Positions 14,333 to 32,403 of a stretch of DNA of 33,445 nucleotides are shown piece after piece (position 1 is the stretch's first letter; each line of letters starts with the position of its first letter). A program made the translations under genes and the position numbers. The notes under the pieces are model-generated. The model did not search any database. It was not told where the DNA came from and saw only the letters and a list, made by a program, of their open reading frames with translations. The stretch comes from Bacillota bacterium (lineage in GTDB: Bacteria; Bacillota; Clostridia; Peptostreptococcales; Anaerovoracaceae): contig JAQXIX010000033.1 of NCBI GenBank assembly GCA_029008005.1, forward strand, positions 1-33,445. Reading direction: 5' to 3'.

Positions 14333-15106
14333 TTATTCACCGGCACCCAGTACCGTGAAGCAGACATCCTGAAGATTTTCGTCTTTTCTCAGCCTGTTTC
14401 TGACAGGTTTCCAAACCGGTGCCTTAAAAAAGCACTCATCTGTATATGAAAGCATTTTTTCGAATTCCGGTCCCGTAATGCTGATCGCAATTTCGTTTTC
14501 CTCAACGAATTTTCTCTGGGCCAGATCCGTTCCTGTAATTACTGCTCGAGGTTTCTCGCTCTTTAGTTCGTTAAGAGGAATTCTTATCATTGATGCGCAG
14601 CCTGAAACGGTCGTTGCTATCACTCTGTCATACTCCGGCTTGTCATATCCGTGGAGCACTATCATTGCCGACAGCTGATCGGGATTACAGAATGCCACTG
14701 CGATATCACACTTGATTCCCTCTCTGTAGGGCTGGAATTTAAGAGCGTCATACCCGTCCATTACACCTTTCGGCAGACAATCGAACATAGCGTATGCCAT
14801 TTCCGGGTCGCACTTGAATCTTTCTCCGTCAGGCGTCCACTGCTGTTTGGAGCCTTTGCTCAGAAACAGCCCGAAGCCTCCCGGAATCATTGGTGGTTCA
14901 TCTTTAAGGCCGCTGTTATGTTCGAAGCCTTTGCACCCGCAAAATCCAACAGCCGATACAATCGTCTCTCCGGCAAACACTCTGTGGAGAATCTTGTATA
15001 TGCATCCGAAGGTGTGCTCCGGTGTTTCCTCTGATTTCCTTACTCTCGTAATTGCAATTATCTTATTCTGAAGTTTTAATTCCTTCACAAGTTCACTGTA
15101 TCCCAT
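14333..15106 (-). CDS. DUF169 family protein
   Basis: 257 residues if started at the ATG at 15106 (MGYSELVKELKLQNKIIAIT), which has AGGAG 7 bases upstream; a TTG at 15124 is the only longer start and lacks support. The C-terminal half fits DUF169 (COG2043): DIAVAFCNPDQLSAMIVLHGY, ATTVSGCASMIRIPLNEL, then the G..D.A.RKF..ENE..ISI pattern. Cysteines in VGFCGCKGFEH and elsewhere are numerous, which hints at metal or redox chemistry as in other members, but the activity of the family is not known. Its start overlaps the end of the large GGDEF/HD-GYP gene by 14 bases, so they form one operon and are probably translationally coupled. Likely cytoplasmic. Confidence 0.75.
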   Translation of the reverse strand: MGYSELVKELKLQNKIIAITRVRKSEETPEHTFGCIYKILHRVFAGETIVSAVGFCGCKGFEHNSGLKDEPPMIPGGFGLFLSKGSKQQWTPDGERFKCDPEMAYAMFDCLPKGVMDGYDALKFQPYREGIKCDIAVAFCNPDQLSAMIVLHGYDKPEYDRVIATTVSGCASMIRIPLNELKSEKPRAVITGTDLAQRKFVEENEIAISITGPEFEKMLSYTDECFFKAPVWKPVRNRLRKDENLQDVCFTVLGAGE

Positions 15107-18100
15107 TTTTCTTCTCCTGTTCAATAAATCGGTGAGAACAATTTCTCAGGGAATTCATAAGCTTCGGTGAAAAGGCACCGCATTCATCATTGAGTATCAT
15201 ATTCAGCGCTGTCTTCCGTTCATATGCATCTTTGTATGAACGCTTGTTTATCAGTGCGTCGAAGCAGTCTGCAACGGCAACAATCTGTGCTGAAATCGGA
15301 ATTTCGTCTCCTACGAGTCCGTCCGGATATCCGTTGCCGTCGTATTTTTCATGGTGCCATCTGCATATTTCCAGACTCGTATTGATATATTCGTCGTTCC
15401 AGTCGGACGGAGCCTTTTCTATTATCTTGCAGCCTTTGGCACAGTGGGTTTTCATTATTTCGAATTCACCCGGAGTAAGAGAGCTGTTTTTAAGAAGAAT
15501 CTCGTCCGGAATCATGATTTTGCCTACATCATGCAGAGAACTTGCTGCAGAAATCAGCTTTACCTTTTTCTCTGTCAGTCCGTACTCCGGCAGATCGTTC
15601 ATAACCTGTTCTGCGAGAATATATGTGAAGTCTTTTACTCTTTTAATATGTTCTCCGCTTTCAATATCACGAGCTTCCGTTATCTGACCGAACAAATCGA
15701 ATATTTCTTCGTTGATTCTGTTCAGCTTCTCGTTTTTCTCCAGTATTTCTCCCGTACGTTCCCTAACAATCTGTTCAAGCTGCTTCTGACGTTCTCTTTC
15801 GTCATTTATTTCTTCATCTGTGTTATGAAGACCGGCAACTATTCCTTTGAGATTGCCTTTTTCATCTTTATCGGCGACAAACTTCAGCTGGTAATGCTTA
15901 AGAGCCTCACCGATACACGCCCGGAAATTGATTATATACGAAGTTCCGTTTTCCAGAGCATTAACAACGTTATCCCGCGTTGACGCGTTCTTAAACAGTT
16001 TTTTATCCTCCGGATGTACTACCGCCTCACGGAGTATATCAAGCCTGTGGGAAAACTGCTTCTCGCATTTCCATCCGGGAACCGCTTTCTCCATAACGGG
16101 AGAAATGCGATAAATCTCCGAAATATCATCGAATTCCGATTCCTTCAAGGTGATGTACAATACCTCGTCATAATCACTTGCAAGTGCCGAAACCACTGCC
16201 AGTTTCTCTGCATTCTCGATTTCTTTTCTCTTTTTTCTGAGAATTTCTCCGTAAATAAAGGTCCCCAGAAACCGCAGTAAAGAAAAATCTCTGCTTTCCC
16301 TTCCGATGTCAGCGAGAGCCACAAATCCTGTCAGACTGCCGTTGTCAATAAACGGTACAGCTGCTACCAGACAGCGTTTGCCGTCTTCTGAATAAACAGA
16401 AACCTCTCCGTCCATTTTTAATTTTTCCGTCAGCTCTCTTTTGAATGTAATTTCTTTAATTATAAAATTCTCATCATGTTCTTGTTTAGATGTTTCCCAC
16501 TCGCACACTACATCAATTGTCTCTAGATTTTCATCGACACTGCATACGTACGCGCGAGCTGATTTATAGTAGCCTCCCACAACTGACAGCATTGCATTTA
16601 CCGATGTCTCAGGATCTGCTCCGCTGTTCATAAGATTAATGCACTGCCTTAAAATCAGATGAATTTCACGCTGCTTTTGCTGATAATTAAGCTCCTCGGA
16701 TCTGGCGTCCTCTACAGGTCCGAATGCAACAAGAATATTAACAGGTTCTCCGTCATGTTCGTCAAGCTTCTTGACAATGCACTTTTCCCACGGATCCTGT
16801 TCGTCTGTCGTCCTGTAAACAATTTCGTCAGGATAGCCATCCTTAACGTACTGCTTCAGTCGGTCTGCACTGCCTATGGCATTAAGAATGCCCCAGTCTT
16901 CAGGGTTAGTGAATTCTTCTTCGCAAGCCATTATTTCATCGTACTTGCCGGACATTCCCCAGTCAGCTCCGAATCCGCCTATTTTGTGAATACATCTGTA
17001 GTTGCCGGTCTTCGTATTAACTACATATGTCGAATAATATTCATCTAAAATCTTGCCGGAAGCAGCTGTTGACAGTATTTCTTCGTTGTTGTCCTTTATT
17101 CCGATAATACACTCGTGTACTGCCTTATCGCTGTTCAGTCTCGTAGCCGATACTTCGTAATATCTGAACCCTTCGGCATCCGGCACTCTGAAGGTTTCGG
17201 TGAAGGTTCTGTTCTCCGACAGCTTCCTCCTGATATTATCAATTGAAATTGCCTCCGTAATTCGAGACAGATCATCTTCAAGAACGTTACGTTCGGCAAA
17301 TAAGCGGAGTCTTTCGCTGTATCCCATTCTTTCCAGTTCCGTATCTTCAAGGAAAGCTTTTGTTTTCGGTCCGCTTTTTATTATATGAAGAATATCGTTA
17401 TCCAGATCGACCCTGAATACTGCAGTATACTTCTCAAGAAATGCGTTGTAGCTCAATCTCTCGCCGTCAGTCCTATGAAGCTTATCGACTGCGAACACAC
17501 ATGCCAGAAGAGAACTTCTGTCCTCATTATCCGCAAAGACAGTTCTAAGTCTGAACCATGCCGGGGTCCCGTCAACCATAAGGCGGTATTCCAGTTCAGA
17601 TGCACCTTTTTCTTCGATTTCTCTGACAATTCTATCTAAATTCAGGTATTCGGTCAGAAGAATCCAGTCCGGCTCATACACAATCGGTCTGCAAAGCTTC
17701 ATACTGCTCTCGAAGAAATTCTCCTTGCCGGTTTTCGGGAAGTTCAGTCTTCTTACATACTCTTCGTCATTAAACAGTGTTTTGTATTTCCCCGTTTCGA
17801 CATCGATAGCATACACCAGAATCGCATCATCATCCAGCTTGCCGATGATCTTCATCATTCTACGAAGAATATCTTCTTCAGTCCTTCTCTTTTCTTCTCT
17901 CTTCTTGCTGTTTATATTAATAAGGCCGAACAGTATTCCATCCGGGTCGTTTCTGTCCTGAACAAATTTAATTCTGTAATACAGAATTTCTCCTTCGGAA
18001 ACAATCCTGAAATCATGAAAATATATGCTGTTATTTCTCAGTTCACTTACGACTCTCTCTTTTTTCGTTGCCTCACGAAGCCGCTCCAGATCATCCTTAT

Positions 18101-19229
18101 GCACAATATCGGCAAAGAATCTTTTCATTTTTTCTGTATATGACAGAGAGCTGTCTATTTTATCCATATGTTTTCTAAGCCTGTCACCGGTCTGGAAACA
18201 TATGACTTCCTTGTCTTTCCTGCTGATATAACATGCATAATCCAGAGAACCGGACAGACCTGTTATTACTGCATTCTGCCTTTTGATTATCGAAATCTCT
18301 CTGCGGTGTGATGATAAAACAGTACAATCCGCCCGTTCATCATTAAGACTGTATATGCCTACCGTTCCGTCCTGGTTACTGCTTGTAAATTCATTTTCAA
18401 AAGCAACAGCGTTTTTTCTCAGCTTAGCTACATAAAGCTGTTTGTCTGCTTCTTCAAATGCAGCTCCCTTACTGCTGCTGTCGTAAGCACATCCGATACT
18501 GACACTTAAACTGAGCTCCGGAGCATCGGGAATTCTGATTTTAGCTATCGACTGTCTTATTGCATCCATCTTCCCGAGAAACACATCTCTCGGAATACTT
18601 GAAAAAGCAATAAGAAACTCGTCTCCTCCGAATCTGACGATCACATCGCTGTTTCTGGTATTTATCTGAATCTGCTTCACTATGGAGTTCAATGCCACAT
18701 CACCGGTCAGATGCCCATATGTATCATTAATTTCCTTAAAATCATCGATATCGACAATCGCCATTGCCGCTGAGGAATTAATTTCATTGTAGTGTTCTTC
18801 GAAATATCTCCTGTTAAGAGCACCTGTCAGAGGATCATTGTACAGCTGTTCCTGAAGGTCACTCATCAGACGGGCAAACTTCTTATCGTCATATGCTTCC
18901 GCCAGCACATTGTTCTCCATAAGGGAAATCGTTTCCAGAGAAAACGTTCTGTCTCCGATTTCCAGAGGGAAACAGATAACGTGATAAATATCTCCCTTGG
19001 AAACCTCAAACTTCTCGAGTCTCCTCTTTTGTCTGCAGGCTTTGTCTGAAACACAGTTATCACAAACCTGATCACGATGCCAGATCTTATGACAGGTTTC
19101 GTTTGTCAGCGAAATACTGCCGTCTTCATTTATTTTTACTATTCTCTTTGCCGCTGTATCGATAACTCTGACTATATCAAACAATTTGCCGAGTTCCGAT
19201 ATCAGGTTGAAGGCGTCTTTTCCTGTCAT
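15093..19229 (-). CDS. Bifunctional GGDEF / HD-GYP c-di-GMP protein with PAS and GAF domains
   Basis: A very large (1378 residues) cytoplasmic sensor with no membrane segment. In order: a Cys-rich PAS-like sensor (1-110; Cys at 46, 56, 59, 65 as CHKIWHRDQVCDNCVSDKAC); a GGDEF diguanylate cyclase (about 129-285) with intact GGDEF at 201-205 and an RxxD inhibitory site RNSD (192-195) five residues before it; a run of PAS-like segments (about 320-440, 450-580, 590-715, 725-840); a GAF-like domain (850-1000); another PAS (1010-1140); a coiled-coil linker; and a C-terminal HD-GYP phosphodiesterase (1175-1375) with HD at 1233-1234 and HHEKYDGNGYP at 1292-1302. It can thus potentially make and break c-di-GMP. 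AAAGGA precedes the ATG; promoter at 19255-19283. Confidence 0.92.
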   Translation of the reverse strand: MTGKDAFNLISELGKLFDIVRVIDTAAKRIVKINEDGSISLTNETCHKIWHRDQVCDNCVSDKACRQKRRLEKFEVSKGDIYHVICFPLEIGDRTFSLETISLMENNVLAEAYDDKKFARLMSDLQEQLYNDPLTGALNRRYFEEHYNEINSSAAMAIVDIDDFKEINDTYGHLTGDVALNSIVKQIQINTRNSDVIVRFGGDEFLIAFSSIPRDVFLGKMDAIRQSIAKIRIPDAPELSLSVSIGCAYDSSSKGAAFEEADKQLYVAKLRKNAVAFENEFTSSNQDGTVGIYSLNDERADCTVLSSHRREISIIKRQNAVITGLSGSLDYACYISRKDKEVICFQTGDRLRKHMDKIDSSLSYTEKMKRFFADIVHKDDLERLREATKKERVVSELRNNSIYFHDFRIVSEGEILYYRIKFVQDRNDPDGILFGLININSKKREEKRRTEEDILRRMMKIIGKLDDDAILVYAIDVETGKYKTLFNDEEYVRRLNFPKTGKENFFESSMKLCRPIVYEPDWILLTEYLNLDRIVREIEEKGASELEYRLMVDGTPAWFRLRTVFADNEDRSSLLACVFAVDKLHRTDGERLSYNAFLEKYTAVFRVDLDNDILHIIKSGPKTKAFLEDTELERMGYSERLRLFAERNVLEDDLSRITEAISIDNIRRKLSENRTFTETFRVPDAEGFRYYEVSATRLNSDKAVHECIIGIKDNNEEILSTAASGKILDEYYSTYVVNTKTGNYRCIHKIGGFGADWGMSGKYDEIMACEEEFTNPEDWGILNAIGSADRLKQYVKDGYPDEIVYRTTDEQDPWEKCIVKKLDEHDGEPVNILVAFGPVEDARSEELNYQQKQREIHLILRQCINLMNSGADPETSVNAMLSVVGGYYKSARAYVCSVDENLETIDVVCEWETSKQEHDENFIIKEITFKRELTEKLKMDGEVSVYSEDGKRCLVAAVPFIDNGSLTGFVALADIGRESRDFSLLRFLGTFIYGEILRKKRKEIENAEKLAVVSALASDYDEVLYITLKESEFDDISEIYRISPVMEKAVPGWKCEKQFSHRLDILREAVVHPEDKKLFKNASTRDNVVNALENGTSYIINFRACIGEALKHYQLKFVADKDEKGNLKGIVAGLHNTDEEINDERERQKQLEQIVRERTGEILEKNEKLNRINEEIFDLFGQITEARDIESGEHIKRVKDFTYILAEQVMNDLPEYGLTEKKVKLISAASSLHDVGKIMIPDEILLKNSSLTPGEFEIMKTHCAKGCKIIEKAPSDWNDEYINTSLEICRWHHEKYDGNGYPDGLVGDEIPISAQIVAVADCFDALINKRSYKDAYERKTALNMILNDECGAFSPKLMNSLRNCSHRFIEQEKKNGIQ

Positions 19230-20171: not shown

Positions 20172-20197
20172 TGACGCCCTAAGGACGTCATTTTTTT
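20172..20197 (+). terminator. Terminator after the Cys-rich membrane protein gene
   Basis: TGACG-C-CC pairs with GG-A-CGTCA (20172-20179 with 20183-20190, one C-A mismatch) and is followed by seven T residues (20191-20197). The right arm includes the stop codon of the converging histidine kinase gene (20188-20190). Confidence 0.75.
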
Positions 20198-22713
20198 AAT
20201 GCTTTTGCCAGAACATCAAGGAGCATGTCCGTCTTAAATGGTTTAGCCACATGGTAATCCATACCTGCATCAAAGGCATTTCTCACATCTTCTTCCAAAG
20301 CATTTGCCGTCATAGCGATAACAGGAACTTTCGCCCGACTGTCCGGCATGCCACGGATGATTTTCGTGGCTTCATATCCGTTACGTCCGGGCATCTGAAT
20401 ATCCATCAGAATTGCGTCATAATATCCCGGCTCCGATTTTGACATCATATCCGTACACTGAACTCCGTCTGCGGCTCTTTCTATTAAAAAATCATATTCC
20501 TTAAGAAATTCGATTGCTATCTCCACATTTAGTTCATTGTCTTCCGCTAAAAGCAGCCTTTTGCCTCGGAAACAAGATTTGTCGTATTCCCACCCTTTTT
20601 CATGGGATTCGCCCTTCTCATTGTATTCCGCTATACGGTGCTCCAGACGTACGGTAACCTTCGTTCCTTCCCCCGGCTTGCTTTTCACATCTATGGTTCC
20701 ACCCATCATATCAACAAGTTTTTTGACAATATGCATGCCTATTCCCGTGCCTTTGACTTTAGAATCCGTGCTCGACCGTTCTCTTTCAAAGGCATCAAAA
20801 ACGCGAGACAGGAATTCTTCCGACATGCCTATTCCAGTATCCTCAATTGTCGATTCGAAAACTGCATATCCGGGGCCACTACCCGGCAGCTCCCTCAGCT
20901 TCATTGTTATTCTTCCTCCCGCAGGAGTATATTTAAATGCATTTTCAATAATATTCAGGAAGATTTCGCGTATCTTCGTTTCGTCGGCCATTATTATGTG
21001 ATGTTCTACCTCCGAGTCAATCTCCAGGGAGATATTCTTATTTTTAACGTGTGCCTCGAAAACGTTCATGACTGATTCAAGAACATCTCTTTCATCCAGC
21101 ATGGTTTCATTCAGAGTTTCTCTTCCGCTTTCGATTCCGGCAAGTTCCAGTATATTATTAATAAACGAAAGAAGAAAATCGCTTGAATCTTTTATCTTTT
21201 CAATATAGTCCTCTGCTTTTTCCCTGTTGTCCAGGTTTTTCTGCAGCAGCTCTGTATATCCTACGACTGCGTTCATAGGAGTCCTTATATCATGGGACAT
21301 ATTGAACAGAAAATCACTCTTGGCTCTGCTTGCCTTTTCGGCATCTTCAAGAGCCTTCTCGAGTATGGCACGCTGTTCTTCGTCGAGCCTGCGCAGCCGT
21401 TCTATTTCCATGTTCAGTTTTTCTTCATACTCAAGCCTTGTGTTTACAGTAGTAAATGTTGTTGCGTATGATACATCATCCTGCTCAATGAAATTCAGTA
21501 CTGTCATCAGCGGTCTGTGCTTTCCGTCACTGCTGCCTGTCGTTGAAAAGTACTCAAGAGTAACAGTATCACCTGCTTTATACTGTCTCAGCCTTTCCAG
21601 ATTTGCTTTACTGTGGATACCCTCAATACCCTCTACGTCTTTCATCTTTGACAGAATCTCTTTTTCCAGGTATTCGTCCCATTTATCGATAACATGAACT
21701 TCACGGATTTTTTCATTTTCCCGGATAAGACGAATCTGTGAATCTTCATCCAGATTAATTAACGCACATGTAACGAAATCAGGCGGCATTGAATTAAGAA
21801 AAATCTTATTTGCCCTGAGGGTTTTTCTGAGTTCCTCGTTATCATGAAGATTGCTTACATTTCTGAACAGAAAATGAATCAACGGATCGCCTTTGCTGCT
21901 CCTTCCGGAAAAAACATTTATCTCATACCATTCTTTGCGGCCGTCATTCATCCGAATCAGGAATTCATCTGTTCCCACATTCCCCGGCTTCCTGCAGCTG
22001 ATTTCAAGATTCTCTTTTGAAAGCAGGCGTTCTGCTCTTTTTCTGTACGCAGTGTCGGTTCTTTTGTAAAAATCTTTGTATACATCTTCATATTTGCTGT
22101 AACAGCTGAGATGTTCTCCGGTGCCGTCTTTTATATCTCCGGAAATAAAAGAAAACGTCCATGTATTTATGTCAACAGTCATGAAAAAACTGTACAAGGT
22201 TTTCGCCATATCCGAAATAACTTTTTCTCTGGCCGATATACTGCGCAGCTCATTCTGTATGTTCCTGTTCTTCTCATAGATGTTCGTAACATCCATGCAC
22301 ACACACATCATAACAAGTCTGCCGTCAGCATCGCGAACTACTTCTCCCTTGTCGATGACATATATACATGATCCGTCTTTTTTTAAGAATCTATAGGTGA
22401 CGTCGTATTTCTGCCCTTCATAATAATCCACACCGATTTCTTCATACAGTGCGGGAATATCTTCAGGAAAAACAGCATTTTCCACAAGACCTGAAGTGCT
22501 TGACTCAAATTCATCACGAGTTTCGTACCCAAGCATTTTAAGCATGTTGTGATTCACATAATACAGCGGAAGACCTTCCTCACAGTACACTCCAAGGGTA
22601 CCTATTCTCATGGCATCATAGTTTTCTATGAAATCCATACCATTACAATCGGAAGCACAATACGTCCGACCCCCCCCTTCACATTTTTTTACATTTTTGA
22701 TATATGAATCCAT
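20188..22713 (-). CDS. Hybrid sensor histidine kinase with receiver domain
   Basis: 841 residues, cytoplasmic (no membrane segment). In order: PAS (about 30-145), two further PAS-like sensor segments (175-290 and 300-425), a coiled coil (425-465), HisKA with the phospho-accepting His474 in NMSHDIRTPMNAV, HATPase with N-box Asn591 (NAFKYTP), G1 EDTGIGM (624-630) and G2 GTGIGMHIV (655-663), then a C-terminal receiver (717-838) with LLLAEDNE and phosphoacceptor Asp771 in MDIQMPGRNG, and conserved Thr and Lys later. All catalytic residues are present. The output must be a separate phosphotransfer protein and regulator, not found in this window. The ATG at 22713 has only a weak AAGAGAGA site. A G8 run lies in codons 12-15, see the separate entry. 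It stands alone in its operon. Confidence 0.93.
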   Translation of the reverse strand: MDSYIKNVKKCEGGGRTYCASDCNGMDFIENYDAMRIGTLGVYCEEGLPLYYVNHNMLKMLGYETRDEFESSTSGLVENAVFPEDIPALYEEIGVDYYEGQKYDVTYRFLKKDGSCIYVIDKGEVVRDADGRLVMMCVCMDVTNIYEKNRNIQNELRSISAREKVISDMAKTLYSFFMTVDINTWTFSFISGDIKDGTGEHLSCYSKYEDVYKDFYKRTDTAYRKRAERLLSKENLEISCRKPGNVGTDEFLIRMNDGRKEWYEINVFSGRSSKGDPLIHFLFRNVSNLHDNEELRKTLRANKIFLNSMPPDFVTCALINLDEDSQIRLIRENEKIREVHVIDKWDEYLEKEILSKMKDVEGIEGIHSKANLERLRQYKAGDTVTLEYFSTTGSSDGKHRPLMTVLNFIEQDDVSYATTFTTVNTRLEYEEKLNMEIERLRRLDEEQRAILEKALEDAEKASRAKSDFLFNMSHDIRTPMNAVVGYTELLQKNLDNREKAEDYIEKIKDSSDFLLSFINNILELAGIESGRETLNETMLDERDVLESVMNVFEAHVKNKNISLEIDSEVEHHIIMADETKIREIFLNIIENAFKYTPAGGRITMKLRELPGSGPGYAVFESTIEDTGIGMSEEFLSRVFDAFERERSSTDSKVKGTGIGMHIVKKLVDMMGGTIDVKSKPGEGTKVTVRLEHRIAEYNEKGESHEKGWEYDKSCFRGKRLLLAEDNELNVEIAIEFLKEYDFLIERAADGVQCTDMMSKSEPGYYDAILMDIQMPGRNGYEATKIIRGMPDSRAKVPVIAMTANALEEDVRNAFDAGMDYHVAKPFKTDMLLDVLAKALKK
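22670..22677 (-). repeat. G8 homopolymer near the start of the histidine kinase gene
   Basis: Eight consecutive G on the coding strand fall in codons 12-15 (GAA GGG GGG GGT CGG). A change of one base by slippage would shift the frame before the first PAS domain. In-frame ATGs at codons 26 and 35 lie downstream but lack good ribosome binding sites, so slippage should switch the gene largely off. Confidence 0.6.
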
Positions 22714-24051: not shown

Positions 24052-26616
24052 TTAATTCTTCCCATCCATTCTCTGTTTTTCTTTTCGTGTCGAATAACCG
24101 AGCAGCAATATAATTGCCGCCGCTGATGCTATTGCAACGAGAGTGTATATATCACTGAAGCCTTCATTTAATGTTCTGCGGAATACCGTTTCAATAGTAC
24201 TCCTTCGTTTTTCGATTGAAATAATGTAATTATCCTCTGCTTTTTCAAATGCTCCGGGAACAGCTTCCATGAGAGTTTTAAGTTTCCGGCTTAAATCATC
24301 AAGTTTCTCACCCGACTCTCTCATCTTATCCATGGCACTCGCCATCTCTGCTCTTGATGATTCCATTTCCCTTATTGAGGATTCCATATCCTTCAGCGCA
24401 CTATTCATTTCGCTTATATTCCTGTTTATATCTGATACGCTGTGTATTTTTGCCACCTTTTTCTTCGTGTCGGATGACATCTTGCTTTTGGCTGACGACG
24501 GCATCATATCAAGAAGAGACATTCCTTTCGGTATTTTACCTTCGGCAAGCTGATTCAGCATAGACTGAATGCTCTTCATTTGATTTATTGCACCTTCAAG
24601 AGCCTTTGCTTCTGGGGAGCCTCTTACTTCCTCAGGAATATTATCGTAGGCAGTCTGCATTGCATTTATCTGCGCATCAAGCTGACTTCTCGATTTTATT
24701 TCCTTGAGATTGTTCAGAACATCGGGAGGTATGTTCCCCCTTGCCTTATCGGGAATCAAGTCGGATGCAGACATTCCGTTCGGCAGGTTATCCGAAGAAA
24801 AAGCTTTCAGACCGGTGCGTGCATTCTCCAGCTGCTTCTTAGCGCCGTTAATCTGAGACATACCTGTTCTGATTCCTGAGATACCTTCTCCGATTCCGTT
24901 ATAACCTTCCTGCATTTCTGCTGCGGCATCGTCGATTTCGCTGCGTCCTTCTCTTATTCCTTCTATGCCTTTCGTCAGACCGGAATTGATATTTCCCATA
25001 ATTTCCGGTGCCATCAGTTGGAACATTTCCCCGGAGAAGATTTTAACATTATCTACTATGGTCGTTACGTCACTGTTCTGCAAAAGCTCCAGCATTTCGT
25101 CAGAAATCTCAAAATTCCTGTTTTCCTCGTCTACGCTTCCGATATTAATCGAATCAAGCTCGGGCAGTTCCATATCATCGGCAATTTCTATTCTGCCGGA
25201 CATTTCCGGATCCGATTTAATCTTATCGAATTCTTCCTGTATTTCCTCGTAATAAGGAAGCTTCCCTATCTTTATCTCTGCGGGAAGTTCCTGCATTATA
25301 TTGTCTGAAACATTCATCCCTGCATGTGCTATGAATCCGACCATTATTGCCGGAGCCACCGCCGTTCCAATCGATCGCACAAGGGATAAAGTCGCCAGTG
25401 CCGAATTTGATTCTTTCGGATTGGTGTTGGCAAGCATAATGTAGTTTAACGGAGTGCCCATGGTGAAGCCCAGACCTAACCCGACAATTCCCAGACCGAC
25501 CAGCACTGTTGCCATATTAGGATAAGGACATGTTACCAGCACAAGGAACAGCGCCCCGATTCCCGTAATGATAAATCCTGCACCCAGAACGGCCTTCGCT
25601 CCGTATCTGTCTACAAACTTTCCTGAAACAGGCGCTGCAACCCCGGTGAAAATACCAAGGAATATAACAAGATATCCACCGCTGCCCGTTGCCATATTCA
25701 GGGCATTTTCCGAAAGCTGCGGCACGAATATCACACCCATCAGCACAAACCCGCTTAGTATTGACAGTATCAATGCTATGGCAATGTTGCGATCTGTGAA
25801 ATATCCCAGATTAATCACAGGATTTTCCGCGTACTTTTCTACTATGATGAACAACGGCATCAATACTGCGAAAACCAAAAGATATACATATACTCCCGGC
25901 TCCCTGATGCTGTTTATGAAATCAAAGAAGTCAAGCATTTTCAGTCCGTACATCAGAGAGAAAATCATACATGTCAATATCACTATTCCGATAAGATCAA
26001 GCTTACCCGAATCACCTTCTCTGTTGTTCTTCAGAACCGCCAGCCCCGCTATGACGATAAATGCCGTAATGGGTACATTCAGATAGAAAATATACGACCA
26101 GTTTTCCGTGCCGAAAATATCCATAATAAGACTTCCGACCGATGCACCGAAAACATTGGCAATTCCATATACTCCGCCGACCATTCCCAGCGCCATACCT
26201 CTTTTTTCGGGAGGGAAGCTTGTTCCGAATTCCGATGTTGCAATCGGTACAATACCTCCACCGCCTATGGCCTGAACCGCTCTTGATACGACAAGCATCG
26301 TGAAGCTTTCAAAGGAATTCGAAAAGCCGCAGAAAAACGAGCCCAATCCGAATAATGAAATGCTGATAATATATATATACTTCCTGCCGTACATATCAGC
26401 CATCTTGCCCATTACAGGTATACTGGCTGCATAAAACAGCGTATATATTGTAATCATCCATATTCCCGTCGATGCATCAACAGCCAGATCTGACTGTATT
26501 ACTGTTCTAGCCGGTGTTACGATTCCCGTGTCAAGTGCTCCCATGAAAAGTCCGAGCAGATAGAGCACGAGCACCATTACGAAACGGCCTTTTGTTGTTT
26601 TTGCCTCAGTCTCCAT
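24052..26616 (-). CDS. DHA2-type MFS drug exporter with a long extracytoplasmic coiled-coil insertion
   Basis: 854 residues, versus about 450-550 for ordinary 14-helix (DHA2) exporters. The first 430 residues are a classical MFS core: motif C-like LDTGIVTPA (about 28-36), motif A GKMADMYGRKYIY (70-82), then twelve to thirteen membrane segments. The chain then leaves the membrane for about 385 residues (about 432-818) that are Ser/Lys/Glu/Met rich, heptad-patterned and free of hydrophobic segments, before a last membrane helix at about 822-841 and a short basic tail. By topology this piece should lie outside the cell. It contains an internal duplication (611-653 and 695-737; both begin [LI]P-x-GMS-x-x-D-x-x-P). 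Such domains in other exporters (MmpL/YhgE/Pip-type) help contact wall or secreted lipid, but this is inference. Translation is coupled to xth, 7 bases upstream; its own RBS is weak. Confidence 0.88.
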   Translation of the reverse strand: METEAKTTKGRFVMVLVLYLLGLFMGALDTGIVTPARTVIQSDLAVDASTGIWMITIYTLFYAASIPVMGKMADMYGRKYIYIISISLFGLGSFFCGFSNSFESFTMLVVSRAVQAIGGGGIVPIATSEFGTSFPPEKRGMALGMVGGVYGIANVFGASVGSLIMDIFGTENWSYIFYLNVPITAFIVIAGLAVLKNNREGDSGKLDLIGIVILTCMIFSLMYGLKMLDFFDFINSIREPGVYVYLLVFAVLMPLFIIVEKYAENPVINLGYFTDRNIAIALILSILSGFVLMGVIFVPQLSENALNMATGSGGYLVIFLGIFTGVAAPVSGKFVDRYGAKAVLGAGFIITGIGALFLVLVTCPYPNMATVLVGLGIVGLGLGFTMGTPLNYIMLANTNPKESNSALATLSLVRSIGTAVAPAIMVGFIAHAGMNVSDNIMQELPAEIKIGKLPYYEEIQEEFDKIKSDPEMSGRIEIADDMELPELDSINIGSVDEENRNFEISDEMLELLQNSDVTTIVDNVKIFSGEMFQLMAPEIMGNINSGLTKGIEGIREGRSEIDDAAAEMQEGYNGIGEGISGIRTGMSQINGAKKQLENARTGLKAFSSDNLPNGMSASDLIPDKARGNIPPDVLNNLKEIKSRSQLDAQINAMQTAYDNIPEEVRGSPEAKALEGAINQMKSIQSMLNQLAEGKIPKGMSLLDMMPSSAKSKMSSDTKKKVAKIHSVSDINRNISEMNSALKDMESSIREMESSRAEMASAMDKMRESGEKLDDLSRKLKTLMEAVPGAFEKAEDNYIISIEKRRSTIETVFRRTLNEGFSDIYTLVAIASAAAIILLLGYSTRKEKQRMDGKN

Positions 26617-27478: not shown

Positions 27479-27510
27479 AATAAAAAAGAAGCCCTGATGA
27501 GAACTTCTTT
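27479..27510 (-). terminator. Weak terminator after the GAF-GGDEF-HD-GYP gene
   Basis: On the minus strand AAAGAAG (27504-27510) pairs with CTTCTTT (27485-27491) around a 12-base loop and runs into a U tract (down to 27482). Only 7 A/U-rich pairs, so moderate strength. Confidence 0.45.
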
Positions 27511-27527
27511 AATTAAATATGCATTAT

Positions 27528-30053
27528 TTATGAAATGTTTTTCTGAAGCATTATTTCCTTCTCGTCTATGAGACTTACAAACAGCTTCGCCAGTTTCGGA
27601 TCAAACTGTTTACCTGCTCCCTCAGCGATTTCTCTGCTGGCATATTCTACAGACAATCCCTTTCTGTATGGTCTGTCTGTCGTCATAGCATCGAAAGAAT
27701 CAGCTATTGCGAGACATCTTGCAGATACAGGTATATCCTCACCTGCCATTCCTCTCGGATATCCGCCTCCGTCCCATCGTTCATGATGGCTTATGGTCGC
27801 CGGCACCAGATAATCCATTGACGGCAGATGTCTTATCATTTCAATCGATCCGTTGACATGCCCTTTTATCGTTTCGTATTCTTCATCTGTCAGTTTACCT
27901 TCCTTACCGAGTATGGCTTCCGGTATACTGATTTTGCCGATATCGTGAAGAAGTCCCGCTGCATATACCATTCTTATCTGATCGTCGCTCATTCCGTTGG
28001 CAGCCGCCAGTGTTGCTGCATATTTGGCAACATTTTTACTGTGCTGAGCTGTATAATGATCCTTAGCATCGATTGCAGCAATCAGTGCGTAAATTGTCTG
28101 TGAAGACTCACCGAGAACAGTATCGTCTCTTATTTCGCTTAGCTTCTCTACCTTTTTACGCAAGTTGTATGTCATGGAATCATTTGTCTTAAATACTACG
28201 ATATTGTCTTTTCCGTCGCTTTTAGCTCTGAACACGGCAAGATCTGTATTATCTATAAGCTCTCCGCATGTTGCCGCTGCGTGAGGTGCCACACATATTC
28301 CGCATGAAGCCGTGAGTTTCTTGTGAGATGCTCTCAGACCGTATCCGTTTATATCATGGATTTCTTTCTGAATATGCTCAGCAACCTTCCTCGCCATTCT
28401 TGCATCATGCTCAGGCAGAATTACAGCGAAAACCTTGCCGCTGTACCGGAATGCATATCCTGTTTCCACAGTAACCTGTTTGAGAATTTGCGAAACCTGT
28501 TTGAGAATTTCGTCTCCTTCATTGGCCCCGTAAAGCTGATTATATAATTTGAAATCATCAATATCCACAAAGAGAAGTGCCAGATTGTCGCGGCCTTCTT
28601 TGTTGAATTCCTTTTCGATAACCTTCGTGAAATATCTGTAGTTATAAAGCCCGGTCATTGCATCTGTCCTGGCTTCTCGTTCCACCTGTTCGTAAAGTCC
28701 CGCATTCTTCATGGCAATAGCCGAGATTGAACCCAGAGTTGCCAAAAATCCCATTTCGCTTACTGTATACGCACTGCTCTTTTCCTTGTTTGACAAAAGC
28801 ACGAAACCTACAATACTGCCGTTATCTTTGAGTGCCAGTATGCATGAAATCTCAAGCTGCTTAAACAGAAGCTTCTCGCTGTCCCACATTGAAAGATACA
28901 TAGAGCTGCTTTCGAAATCTCTGGTTGTGAAGCAGATTTCATTCTTCAGTGCATATTCAACGCACGGGATATCATCCCTGAGAGAGAATGATGCCGATGC
29001 CAGAGGACTCGAAACATATTTGAATTTGTACTCATTTCCCTCGTGCATACATATATACACATTTCTTGCCGATATTTCCTGCTTTATTGTATCGGACAGT
29101 ATGGTCATTATATTCTGGCTCTTAAGTGTCTGAGACACCTGCTGTGAAAATGAATCGATAAGTCTGTTCTGCTGTTCTTCTCTCGTGAAAAGAGCATCAA
29201 CAAGCTTGCCGAGGAAGAAGTAGCACAGTGCTACAAGAGCAACTATACACAGTATTATTACTGTAGTCGCCACCTTATATGTAAGACCTGCTTCTCGAAT
29301 CAGAATATCATCAAGCGGAAGCACTACATTCATAGCCACGATAAGGCATATCAATACAGAAATGCAAACTACAACGCCTTTTGAAACAAGCAGTGTGAGT
29401 CTGAACATTCTCTTTTTGTAAAGCGCCCAGACGAGGAAGCAAGCCGTTATTATTCCCGACAGTGTGTCATAAGGAAATATATTTCCCGGAATAATCTGCA
29501 GCAGATTTCCGAATGCGATTATGATACATCCTGCAGTAAGAGCAGTCATTCCGGGAGAACGTGTCCCCGTCTCCTTCTTTTTCCTGCGGATTACTGATGC
29601 GATAGATACTACAATACATGCGAAAAACGCATATGGTATTGCTATCTTCCAATCCATATTGTATTTGAATACCGTCCCTGCCGCGGTAACGACAGATTCC
29701 GGCGGTTTCAAGAATATGCCTAGCGCCGTGAACACCAGAATAACAACTGTTCCCACAGACCATATTATCTTCGTGAATGCTGCTTTTGTTTTAGTAAATG
29801 AGCATACGAAAAAGTATGTTAAAACAGCTATGCAGAACAGCGCCATTATTGATACGTAATACCAGAAGCCTAATCCCGGATATACCTGAAGGCGCATTAA
29901 AATAGAGCCGAGTGTCCAAAGGGTAAATGACGAAAGCAATGCAATAAACGCTTTGATTTCAGCTGTCTTTCTGGCGGCGATAAACGAAATAAATATTATC
30001 GCATATCCGCATAATGCTATTAAGTTGACATAAAGGAATGGTACGTTGTTCAT
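27528..30053 (-). CDS. Membrane GAF-GGDEF(degenerate)-HD-GYP phosphodiesterase
   Basis: 841 residues. About eight hydrophobic segments (8-27, 37-55, 66-86, 97-115, 138-155, 171-189, 196-212, 222-285) make a 7TM-like sensory N-terminus. GAF domain about 300-455, GGDEF-like domain 460-625, HD-GYP 650-835. The GGDEF motif reads SGKVF at 538-542 (context FRYSGKVFAVILPE), so all the catalytic residues are lost while the fold (LLFVDIDDFKLYN, ASCGI) remains; it may bind GTP as a regulator. HD-GYP is intact: LLHDIGKISIP (HD 703-704), HHERWDGGGYP (756-766), SFDAM. Predicted activity is c-di-GMP hydrolysis. Its ATG overlaps the stop of the GH3-family gene in ATGA (30050-30053), which binds its translation to that gene. 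Confidence 0.9.
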   Translation of the reverse strand: MNNVPFLYVNLIALCGYAIIFISFIAARKTAEIKAFIALLSSFTLWTLGSILMRLQVYPGLGFWYYVSIMALFCIAVLTYFFVCSFTKTKAAFTKIIWSVGTVVILVFTALGIFLKPPESVVTAAGTVFKYNMDWKIAIPYAFFACIVVSIASVIRRKKKETGTRSPGMTALTAGCIIIAFGNLLQIIPGNIFPYDTLSGIITACFLVWALYKKRMFRLTLLVSKGVVVCISVLICLIVAMNVVLPLDDILIREAGLTYKVATTVIILCIVALVALCYFFLGKLVDALFTREEQQNRLIDSFSQQVSQTLKSQNIMTILSDTIKQEISARNVYICMHEGNEYKFKYVSSPLASASFSLRDDIPCVEYALKNEICFTTRDFESSSMYLSMWDSEKLLFKQLEISCILALKDNGSIVGFVLLSNKEKSSAYTVSEMGFLATLGSISAIAMKNAGLYEQVEREARTDAMTGLYNYRYFTKVIEKEFNKEGRDNLALLFVDIDDFKLYNQLYGANEGDEILKQVSQILKQVTVETGYAFRYSGKVFAVILPEHDARMARKVAEHIQKEIHDINGYGLRASHKKLTASCGICVAPHAAATCGELIDNTDLAVFRAKSDGKDNIVVFKTNDSMTYNLRKKVEKLSEIRDDTVLGESSQTIYALIAAIDAKDHYTAQHSKNVAKYAATLAAANGMSDDQIRMVYAAGLLHDIGKISIPEAILGKEGKLTDEEYETIKGHVNGSIEMIRHLPSMDYLVPATISHHERWDGGGYPRGMAGEDIPVSARCLAIADSFDAMTTDRPYRKGLSVEYASREIAEGAGKQFDPKLAKLFVSLIDEKEIMLQKNIS

Positions 30054-31648
30054 TTCTGATATCTCAATATTGCGGAAAGGTCCGAAGCGCCGGCATTAAT
30101 TCTAGGCAGCTTTCTTCCCGTTTCTCTGCCATAAGCCTTAATGGTTCCATGTTTAAGTACTGTTATCTTCAATGGTTCCATGTTAAGAAGCTTCTTTAAA
30201 TCGTCGTAGTCGCTGTCGAAAGCTTTGAAGTAAGTTGACAGGTGGTCTGTCAGCACTCTTTTACTGATTACGTCGGATTCCTGAGCTTCTTCTGATATCT
30301 CTATGTACATATGCATGTACGGATTATCGTTTTTGTCGAATTCCTTACGCACTATCCAGTCATCTATACCGAGTTTAGATAATCTCACTGTTTCTGCCAC
30401 AGCAGCTTCGGTAATTCTTGTGAAGCTTGCTATGTCAATAATGCTGGGAACTCTATCGTAAAATGTGAATCTCGGCAGTTCGCCTGTCGGAGACGCACTT
30501 ACACAGTGATATACATCACCGATTCTGTATCTCATAAATGCCCCGCCGTGGAGTACGCTTAATACGATTTCGTAATTGCCCCCTTCCACGACCTCATTCA
30601 TGAGAACGGTCTGCGGCTTATATGAAGGATCGTTCAGATTTCTCATATACTCCTGTTCCGGAATAAACTCATAGAAGCAGGCATCCGGAAAAAGTGTCAT
30701 TCCTCTCTTAAGAAGCGATTCCGATCCTATACATGTTGCCTCTGTTCCTGCAGCTATTTCTATCGGTTCAATTCCCCATGCCTCAGTAAGCCTTTTGCGA
30801 TAATGACTTGCGTCGGCTCCGGTACATACAAAACCCTTTATATCAAATATGTCCTTAGGGTATATCTGTCTTCCTTCTTTACCTGCATTATATTTGGCTT
30901 TCAGGAATTTAAGTGCGATTTTCGGTGATATCGAAAACTTTGAGGAACTGCTTTCACCGGACTTAGCGCTTCCTCCTCCCGTCATTGCACTGAAGCTCTC
31001 TGTAATATAATTGGCTACAGCCGCATTGGCGAAGAAATAGTCTACGCCTCCCGAAAGAGCCATTTTAAATCCCTGCTTTATTCTTTTGCTGAAGCTGCCT
31101 ATGGACGCATCATTGCTCGGCAGCCACTGGAAATCAATATCCTCATCAAGAAGTGACGGGATAAGTCCTGTCATATAAGGAAGCGGTGCTCCTCCGTAAA
31201 GAACACGATCTCCCTTCTTAACGTTTATCTGTCCCTTCTGCTTCGCGGAAATAAGGATAGTCAATGCCGAAAGATTATGTCTGTATGTGTCCAGCATGCT
31301 TCTTGTGTAAGGAGCAACCTTAATAGGTTTAATTCCGCCTTCCCACGTTGTCTGTATCCATATTACAGGTTCTCCGGGAAGCATTTCCTTTTTTTTCGCA
31401 AGCAGAATATCTGCGTAATCATCATATGTCGTGAGCGGGAAATTGTCTCTGAAGTCATCTATTGTTTTATAAGATTTCCCCTTGAGCAGACTTTTTCCCA
31501 GGCCTGATTCCGACCACACCCTGAGCTGCTCGCTCATAAGCCTGTTCTGAATATCCATATAGGCATCTGTATCCAGGTCAATAAACCCGCAATATTCCTG
31601 CCATATTTTTTCACTTGAACTCTCTTTTAGTTTTTGCTGAAATCTCAT
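30050..31648 (-). CDS. GH3 family acyl-adenylating enzyme
   Basis: 532 residues, similar in size to bacterial GH3 proteins (plant GH3s, about 600, conjugate amino acids to auxin or jasmonate by acyl-adenylate formation). Motifs of that family are visible: PLTTYDDYADIL (about 71-82), the nucleotide motif 3 MRYRIGD (YRIGD 374-378), the AAGTEA loop (299-304) matching motif 2, and the basic end GTIKAYGRETGRKLPRIN (about 501-518). Motif 1, usually SSGTTxGxPK, is altered: IQTTWEGGIKPIKV (98-111), so catalysis should not be taken for granted. A Ser/Gly-rich loop (222-238) is probably flexible. Soluble, no membrane segment. It follows the ICMT-like gene by 2 bases (AGGGGATTTTAGAAAG lies upstream) and overlaps the HD-GYP gene by 4. 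The acyl and amino substrates are unknown. Confidence 0.82.
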   Translation of the reverse strand: MRFQQKLKESSSEKIWQEYCGFIDLDTDAYMDIQNRLMSEQLRVWSESGLGKSLLKGKSYKTIDDFRDNFPLTTYDDYADILLAKKKEMLPGEPVIWIQTTWEGGIKPIKVAPYTRSMLDTYRHNLSALTILISAKQKGQINVKKGDRVLYGGAPLPYMTGLIPSLLDEDIDFQWLPSNDASIGSFSKRIKQGFKMALSGGVDYFFANAAVANYITESFSAMTGGGSAKSGESSSSKFSISPKIALKFLKAKYNAGKEGRQIYPKDIFDIKGFVCTGADASHYRKRLTEAWGIEPIEIAAGTEATCIGSESLLKRGMTLFPDACFYEFIPEQEYMRNLNDPSYKPQTVLMNEVVEGGNYEIVLSVLHGGAFMRYRIGDVYHCVSASPTGELPRFTFYDRVPSIIDIASFTRITEAAVAETVRLSKLGIDDWIVRKEFDKNDNPYMHMYIEISEEAQESDVISKRVLTDHLSTYFKAFDSDYDDLKKLLNMEPLKITVLKHGTIKAYGRETGRKLPRINAGASDLSAILRYQK

Positions 31649-31650
31649 AA

Positions 31651-32232
31651 TTACTTTCTAAAATCCCCTATACATACACATATGCTTTTCCTGTTGGGAA
31701 TAAGAAAAGGTGTGCAGGTTTTATATTTGTCATACCCGTAAAAGCACACCGGGAAAACAAATATGTCCTCAAACAGCGCGAGGAGAACATTCAGCCCCGA
31801 CATAACAGCCACACCTGCTGCCGTCATTCCCGAAACCAGCCACAGGCACATATAAATCAGGATAAAGAACAAAACTCCCGGATGCCTGCAAAGTGCATAA
31901 AACTTTCGAGTATATGTCTGTCTCAAATTTTCACGGTTTACCCTGCAATAAGTTTCGCCCGGGTCAAAGGAAAAAAACAGTGAGTATATCTCTGCTGCAA
32001 TGAGAGGGATAATCAAAATCCAAAGGGCAATTCTTACTGCAAGATTATTCACTGCATACCCGTCACCCCATATACACATACACAAAGTGGCAGCTACAAG
32101 AAGAACAGCCCCTAAAAAGAAACTGATTTTCATCCACTTTCTCTTCAGTTTCCAGTCGTTTATGTCGTTTATAAAAAACAACACAAACCCTGCAATTCCA
32201 ATGATAATCAAACCTGATTCTCCTGTAGTCAT
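31651..32232 (-). CDS. ICMT/PEMT-like integral membrane methyltransferase
   Basis: 193 residues from the ATG at 32232 (MTTGESGLIII), alternatively GTG at 32244 (+4). About five membrane segments: 5-21, 35-54, 65-87, 117-135, 140-155 approximately. The C-terminal part shows the isoprenylcysteine carboxyl/phospholipid methyltransferase pattern: RHPG after a membrane segment, then a Glu-containing VFP-x-CFYGYDKYKTCTPFLIP, where the family has E..FP.Y..Y....P.LIP. In ICMT these residues hold S-adenosylmethionine. Expected reaction is methyl transfer to a carboxylate or amine of a lipidic substrate at the membrane. The GTG lies upstream of the predicted transcript start, so the ATG is preferred. 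First gene of the operon; gap to GH3 gene is 2 bases. Confidence 0.7.
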   Translation of the reverse strand: MTTGESGLIIIGIAGFVLFFINDINDWKLKRKWMKISFFLGAVLLVAATLCMCIWGDGYAVNNLAVRIALWILIIPLIAAEIYSLFFSFDPGETYCRVNRENLRQTYTRKFYALCRHPGVLFFILIYMCLWLVSGMTAAGVAVMSGLNVLLALFEDIFVFPVCFYGYDKYKTCTPFLIPNRKSICVCIGDFRK

Positions 32233-32244
32233 GGCATCTTTCAC

Positions 32245-32250: not shown

Positions 32251-32369
32251 GTATACATTAACAGCGGTAAAGTTACATCTGTTTTTTTGTCATTTCAAAC
32301 AGGTGATATCCCATTTTCTTTCTGTACTGTGTCATAAAACACTATAAAATTTCATTTAAATCAATATAT

Positions 32370-32395
32370 AGTGCCTGCATAAAAATGCAGGCACT
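32370..32395 (-). terminator. Hairpin after the carboxylesterase gene (weak terminator)
   Basis: A perfect 11-bp stem AGTGCCTGCAT/ATGCAGGCACT (32370-32380 with 32385-32395) with a 4-base loop, 9 bases past the esterase stop. No clean U-tract follows on the minus strand (ATATATTGATTT), so termination may be leaky and the esterase could be partly co-transcribed with the operon below. Confidence 0.55.
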
Positions 32396-32403
32396 ACTGT
32401 TAC

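Follow-up and report, generated by a model that had tools for sequence, protein, structure and literature searches.

Quorum sensing by diffusible signal factor (DSF; the Rpf system) employs the synthase RpfF, the sensor RpfC and the HD-GYP protein RpfG. In fatty-acid kinase systems, fatty acids are handled in the form of acyl-phosphate; incoming ones are bound by FakB-type proteins, and FakAB channels them into membrane lipids. Among enzymes of the GH3 type, those of plants conjugate acyl hormones, activating or inactivating them (excerpt of PMC11253546), and the GH3-like OlsH, reported in 2025 from the OlsH/OlsI ornithine-lipid pathway of planctomycetes, is the one bacterial GH3-like enzyme for which the literature searched gave a worked-out role (PMC12493201). 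Here, we analyzed a stretch of 33,445 nucleotides (hereafter, the window; contig JAQXIX010000033.1, Anaerovoracaceae, Bacillota), in which a putative ICMT-like membrane methyltransferase (MT), a GH3-fold enzyme and an HD-GYP protein are encoded, in that order, by three adjoining genes. A survey of relatives, which the initial annotation of this DNA had called for, revealed that the trio is conserved across Bacillota. The conserved union of two enzymes of the lipid-handling kind with a membrane protein expected to degrade c-di-GMP suggests a chemical signaling circuit, and the literature searched, with incomplete coverage and among the matches listed, held no description of such a GH3/MT/HD-GYP operon; in the excerpts of papers pairing GH3 with HD-GYP, GH3 denoted glycoside hydrolase family 3, or GH30 had been matched instead, and the broader GH3 matches listed dealt mostly with plants or glycoside hydrolases. 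Our reading, to which we assign a probability of roughly 0.45, is that the trio is one cassette coupling the chemistry of an acyl (probably fatty-acid-derived) small molecule to the breakdown of cyclic dimeric guanosine monophosphate (c-di-GMP), with the product of GH3 and MT controlling the HD-GYP protein.

Layout and conservation of the three-gene locus

All three genes lie on the minus strand. The first, for MT, is listed at 31651..32244 from a GTG start at 32244; a TTG at 32211, 8 nt after an AGGAG, is more likely the true start and gives a protein similar in length to its relatives. The second, at 30050..31648, encodes the GH3-fold enzyme (532 amino acids), and the third, at 27528..30053, encodes a 7TM (seven-transmembrane)-(GAF)-GGDEF-HD-GYP protein of 841 amino acids. 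As previously noted for this locus, the MT-GH3 junction is a 2-nt gap and the GH3-HD-GYP junction a 4-bp ATGA overlap. Since terminator-like hairpins on the same strand flank the genes on both sides (32368..32397, upstream of the trio and after a carboxylesterase gene; 27485..27510, past the HD-GYP stop; 9 such sites found in the whole stretch compared to 3.3 in shuffles), the locus reads as a three-gene transcription unit. Rfam at gathering score returned 0 matches in the window and 0 in 20 trio loci; no known riboswitch was therefore found at the trio operon.

A protein search yielded matches in 20 of 100 genomes, including the window's own and a weak match outside the clade, and a 17-member profile then found the family in 39/392 genomes in a sample of the order, 7/391 in the class and 11/398 in the phylum (each count includes the window's genome, and the samples share some genomes). 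The lowest GH3 identity to the window was 37% in the 17-member alignment, which does not hold the deepest members. We then read the neighborhoods of 61 loci in 57 genomes, having dropped the non-clade match (G012; E about 1e-3) and G1056 (two contig-end fragments) and having counted only once five further loci that are apparently on contigs already taken. To be assessable, a locus needed the GH3 end plus a minimum of 600 nt of sequence upstream or 300 nt downstream; loci cut by contig ends were left out of the linkage counts, as was, for the upstream side, L113, with its broken GH3 frame. MT was upstream of GH3 in 56/57 assessable loci, ending between 23 nt inside and 91 nt before the GH3 match; HD-GYP was downstream in 57/57, its match starting between 17 nt inside and 33 nt past the GH3 stop; and both flanked GH3 in 52/53. 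The sole MT-less locus, L109 (G190:C62), is a second copy, the other copy in that genome (L089) being complete; in L109, the protein preceding GH3 and HD-GYP (309 amino acids) is not recognised by the trio profiles. In L114, from a single-contig genome (G497), the HD-GYP gene is frame-broken near its 5' end and the rest of the trio is in place.

The MT profile, run against 148 genomes sampled from the order, gave 17 strong matches in 16 genomes, followed by a gap from 1.8e-53 to 6.9e-11, and all 16 genomes also carry the trio GH3. The 7TM-GAF part occurs in these 16 genomes as well, with one further, partial match in G135, near whose HD-GYP protein neither GH3 nor MT was matched. A tblastn search of plasmids gave no match.

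As a control, ordinary GH3 genes were collected by a GH3_M domain search in 147 genomes of the class, and none of their 12 loci (16 GH3 frames, 8-16 kb fetched) held an MT or HD-GYP match. We rejected chance adjacency on the basis of 56/57 and 57/57 linkage against 0/12 control loci. Four ordinary clostridial loci (L148, L149, L150 and L151) contain GH3 in tandem pairs with a canonical-type motif 1 and without trio-type MT or HD-GYP nearby. When 71 GH3 proteins were placed in a quick maximum-likelihood tree, 55 trio members were split from 16 ordinary ones by a long branch with support 100; long branches drew a warning from the tree program. Genome families are mixed within the trio part of this tree, and pairwise distances correlate at 0.956 between GH3 and HD-GYP and at about 0.71 between MT and either; together, these observations fit a cassette that is inherited and transferred as a unit. 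From the protein tree, we infer that the trio may have moved horizontally.

The three proteins and the c-di-GMP setting

The window GH3 protein passed the Pfam cut-off of 23.6 bits for GH3_M (50.8 bits; 1.8e-13) and for the GH3 N-terminal domain (25.4 bits; 1e-5), GH3_C scoring below it (21.7 bits), and its predicted structure has the GH3 fold, in agreement with the GH3 identity first assigned to it. It was also correctly noted that nucleotide motif 1 is altered: the region TTWEGGIKPIKVAPY (31307..31351, minus strand) reads TTWEGGIKPIK in place of the canonical SSGTSQGRPK type. Since motif 1 is non-canonical, we file the protein in a divergent GH3-fold clade rather than among canonical GH3 enzymes. 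The change is conserved across the clade: of 55 trio GH3 proteins, 51 have W where the canonical motif has G, and the three deepest members keep TSGK (residue counts here and below are taken over the 57 MT, 55 GH3 and 46 HD-GYP proteins whose profile coverage reaches 85%). T100, K110, GTE (motif 2; 30740..30748, minus strand), R-Y-R-x-G-D, DR and FTR are invariant in 55/55, and decay of GH3 was rejected because the altered residues are strictly conserved rather than degraded. When compared to ordinary clostridial GH3, the trio enzymes have two extra residues in motif 3 (GGAFMRYRIGD in the window; 30515..30547, minus strand) and one in the hinge. Compared to the plant acyl-acid amido synthetases JAR1, GH3.12 and GH3.15, the window protein is 14-17% identical and motif 1 is rewritten as TTWxxGxxxxKxAPY in the trio. 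Alignment to PaaK-type acyl-CoA/AMP ligases covers a shorter stretch in most rows, Pfam placing the window protein in GH3, and the OlsH family NF052613 (lyso-ornithine lipid synthetase) of NCBIfam gave 25.8 bits, far below its cut-off of 620.

For MT, the likeness to ICMT held at the level of the family: the window protein on its own matched no Pfam family at E ≤ 0.01, while among 18 family members, 8 matched PEMT and 4 ICMT at E ≤ 1 (best 8.3e-7 and 0.0025, respectively), the MT profile matched structure 4a2n (E = 0.001), and a profile-profile comparison to generic ICMT-like proteins gave a probability of 97.9. Relatives and profiles thus point to kinship with ICMT/PEMT, as the predicted fold may do. 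Unlike ICMT/PEMT methyltransferases and sterol/steroid reductases, the trio MT lacks the tyrosine of the RHPxY cofactor motif (0/57) and has [QE]-[DE] for E-E. In the window the motif reads RHPG (31876..31887, minus strand), with R, H and P kept in 57/57; in 8 generic ICMT-like kin, R, P and Y are invariant.

The third protein, like MT a predicted membrane protein, contains the Pfam domains HisKA_7TM, GGDEF and HD_5. It had been described as a membrane GAF/HD-GYP protein, of which the 7TM and HD-GYP parts are borne out; the GGDEF domain had been missed, and GAF (GAF_2), detected in 7 of 13 family members, was undetected in the window protein at E ≤ 0.01. In five members examined, six to nine hydrophobic segments lie mostly N-terminal of the GAF region. 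The HD-GYP metal motif HDIGK (27933..27947) and signature HHERWDGGGYP (27756..27788), both on the minus strand, are present in the window, and in the family the HD pair, HHE and GxGYP are intact in 46/46, with the D of ExxD in 45/46 and N in one. The GG[DE]EF motif is degenerate in the window (SGKVF; 28428..28442, minus strand), its third position being Lys in 34/46 and D/E in 12/46 members. With this Lys, the window protein should therefore only degrade c-di-GMP.

The proposal that the HD-GYP protein lowers c-di-GMP fits the intact motif. Seven GGDEF stretches, including the one in the trio, were found in the genome (86% complete), as was one c-di-GMP-I riboswitch (L201; G000:C24, minus strand). 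c-di-GMP therefore likely has an output in this genome. The riboswitch sits just before a gene that runs off the contig end and whose product, with its signal-peptide-like N-terminus, is possibly a c-di-GMP-controlled surface protein. A second c-di-GMP gene on the window's contig, at 15093-19229, encodes a 1378-amino-acid protein with a GGDEF domain (18414-18839); the 841-amino-acid product of the gene beside it (20188-22713) reads like a hybrid histidine kinase.

Flanking genes and the probable substrate

The genes flanking the trio vary between loci. In five loci (L038, L040, L098, L101 and L113), spanning four genera, all in the window's family, a DegV/FakB gene directly precedes MT, with an overlap or a spacing of no more than 12 nt; a DAK2 gene of the FakA type points the opposite way from FakB. 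These FakA proteins consist of DAK2 and FakA_M with no C-terminal domain found, and are short compared to FakA (302-308 amino acids in four, 398 in one). In the GH3 tree, from which L113 is absent, the other four FakAB loci group together in a single supported clade. A FakA search of nine genomes matched in the five with FakAB loci, one of which has a second match in a 548-amino-acid frame elsewhere, and in none of the other four, including the window's own. Since FakAB adjoins the trio in these loci and the kinase system handles fatty acids as acyl-phosphate, the substrate is probably a fatty acyl group, although the FakA/FakB pair is absent from all the other trio loci read. Of the earlier suggestion that the trio makes or modifies a carboxylate signal, the acyl link thus gains independent support from five loci of one family.

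Among the matches listed for the 14 largest clusters of genes within four genes of the trio (named by our own reading unless Pfam was run), the recurrent kinds were GGDEF-type (12 loci), DegV (7), two-component-type (6), FakA (5) and ABC-type ATPases (5); the remaining clusters have 3 or 4 loci each, one 4-member cluster being cut pieces of the trio's third gene. The two additional DegV genes, in L043 and L107, lie four genes off on the opposite strand. The GGDEF-type genes, most numerous in L122, may mark c-di-GMP gene clusters. Out of 35 same-strand flank genes within 150 nt, ten close ones were scanned and proved to be of unrelated kinds, the one in L095 being a hybrid histidine kinase; no exporter or uptake gene was tightly linked to the trio among the flanks scanned.

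In the window, the neighbors are a carboxylesterase, an endonuclease/phosphatase-family protein, a major facilitator superfamily (MFS) transporter, a TauE protein and one protein without a family; no RpfF- or RpfC-type gene was found beside the HD-GYP gene among those scanned. The carboxylesterase (an alpha/beta-hydrolase; COesterase) is upstream, beyond the terminator-like hairpin, and had no match in the open frames of 20 trio loci. The MFS transporter (24052-26616; 854 amino acids) has an extended run of weak coiled-coil-type matches at 647-814, and a 781-amino-acid gene product near the L038 trio resembles it.

Proposed circuit, alternatives and known systems

For the substrate, methylation, ligand sensing and direction of signaling, we infer the following. 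The GH3-fold enzyme would activate an acyl carboxylate for coupling to another substrate, for which an amine (e.g., an amino acid) is the likeliest choice; at the membrane, MT would modify the resulting lipophilic product, methylation of its carboxylate being the simplest option; and the 7TM/GAF part would read the product or its precursor and switch the HD-GYP phosphodiesterase. The c-di-GMP output would then follow the acyl pool, or the population if the product leaves the cell, and in the window's genome might be the riboswitch-controlled protein. A bolder version, possible yet doubtful in our judgment, sees a horizontally moving, self-contained cassette, in which a GH3 with a rewritten site and a non-canonical ICMT-fold enzyme build a new lipid signal; the receptor for this signal would be the single-chain 7TM protein, which destroys c-di-GMP, and GH3 would possibly be fed FakAB acyl-phosphate rather than use standard ATP adenylation, making the trio a bacterial counterpart of plant hormone conjugation.

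The chief competitor, which we consider unlikely, is that GH3 and MT make an unusual structural aminolipid, the 7TM HD-GYP protein sensing membrane state or lipid composition and adjusting c-di-GMP. That FakAB, with its route into membrane lipids, adjoins five trio loci, that MT and the HD-GYP protein are both predicted to be membrane-bound, that the flanks scanned show no linked exporter, that COesterase, of the OlsI superfamily, lies upstream in the window, and that OlsH offers a membrane lipid as precedent (PMC12493201) would all agree with such a module; however, the patchy distribution of the trio in order, class and phylum and the family-mixing GH3 tree look like an accessory, transferred trait, and the COesterase gene does not recur. 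More improbable is removal of a signal, in which GH3 and MT conjugate or cap an incoming carboxylate (e.g., a fatty acid of a host or neighbor) and the 7TM HD-GYP protein reports the same acid: the FakB-type proteins beside five trios and the inactivating conjugations of plant GH3 (excerpt of PMC11253546) would suit it, but a strict three-gene order across the phylum is not obviously demanded by removal alone, and the flanks scanned held no linked uptake gene. That GH3 and MT lack catalysis and serve the HD-GYP sensor as subunits that bind a ligand or act as partners, as loss of canonical motif 1 in most GH3 and of the RHPxY tyrosine in every MT might imply, is very improbable given that the changes are strictly conserved, that the GH3 residues listed above are invariant and that the deepest three GH3 members keep TSGK.

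If the trio does couple acyl chemistry to c-di-GMP breakdown, the tight linkage of this phylum-wide GH3 clade to a c-di-GMP phosphodiesterase would connect the chemistry of acyl conjugates with second-messenger control and give Bacillota a possible DSF-type lipid signal. It would also narrow a metabolomic search for the molecule down to a few genes. Like OlsH, the trio GH3 is a GH3-fold enzyme in an operon with a probable fatty-acyl substrate; unlike in OlsH/OlsI, its partners are an ICMT-like MT and an HD-GYP protein instead of an alpha/beta-hydrolase, and the nucleotide motifs differ. As in DSF/Rpf signaling, a fatty-acid-type molecule would be read at the membrane and passed on to an HD-GYP phosphodiesterase, whereas in the trio the sensor and HD-GYP form one chain and the synthase would be GH3 plus MT.
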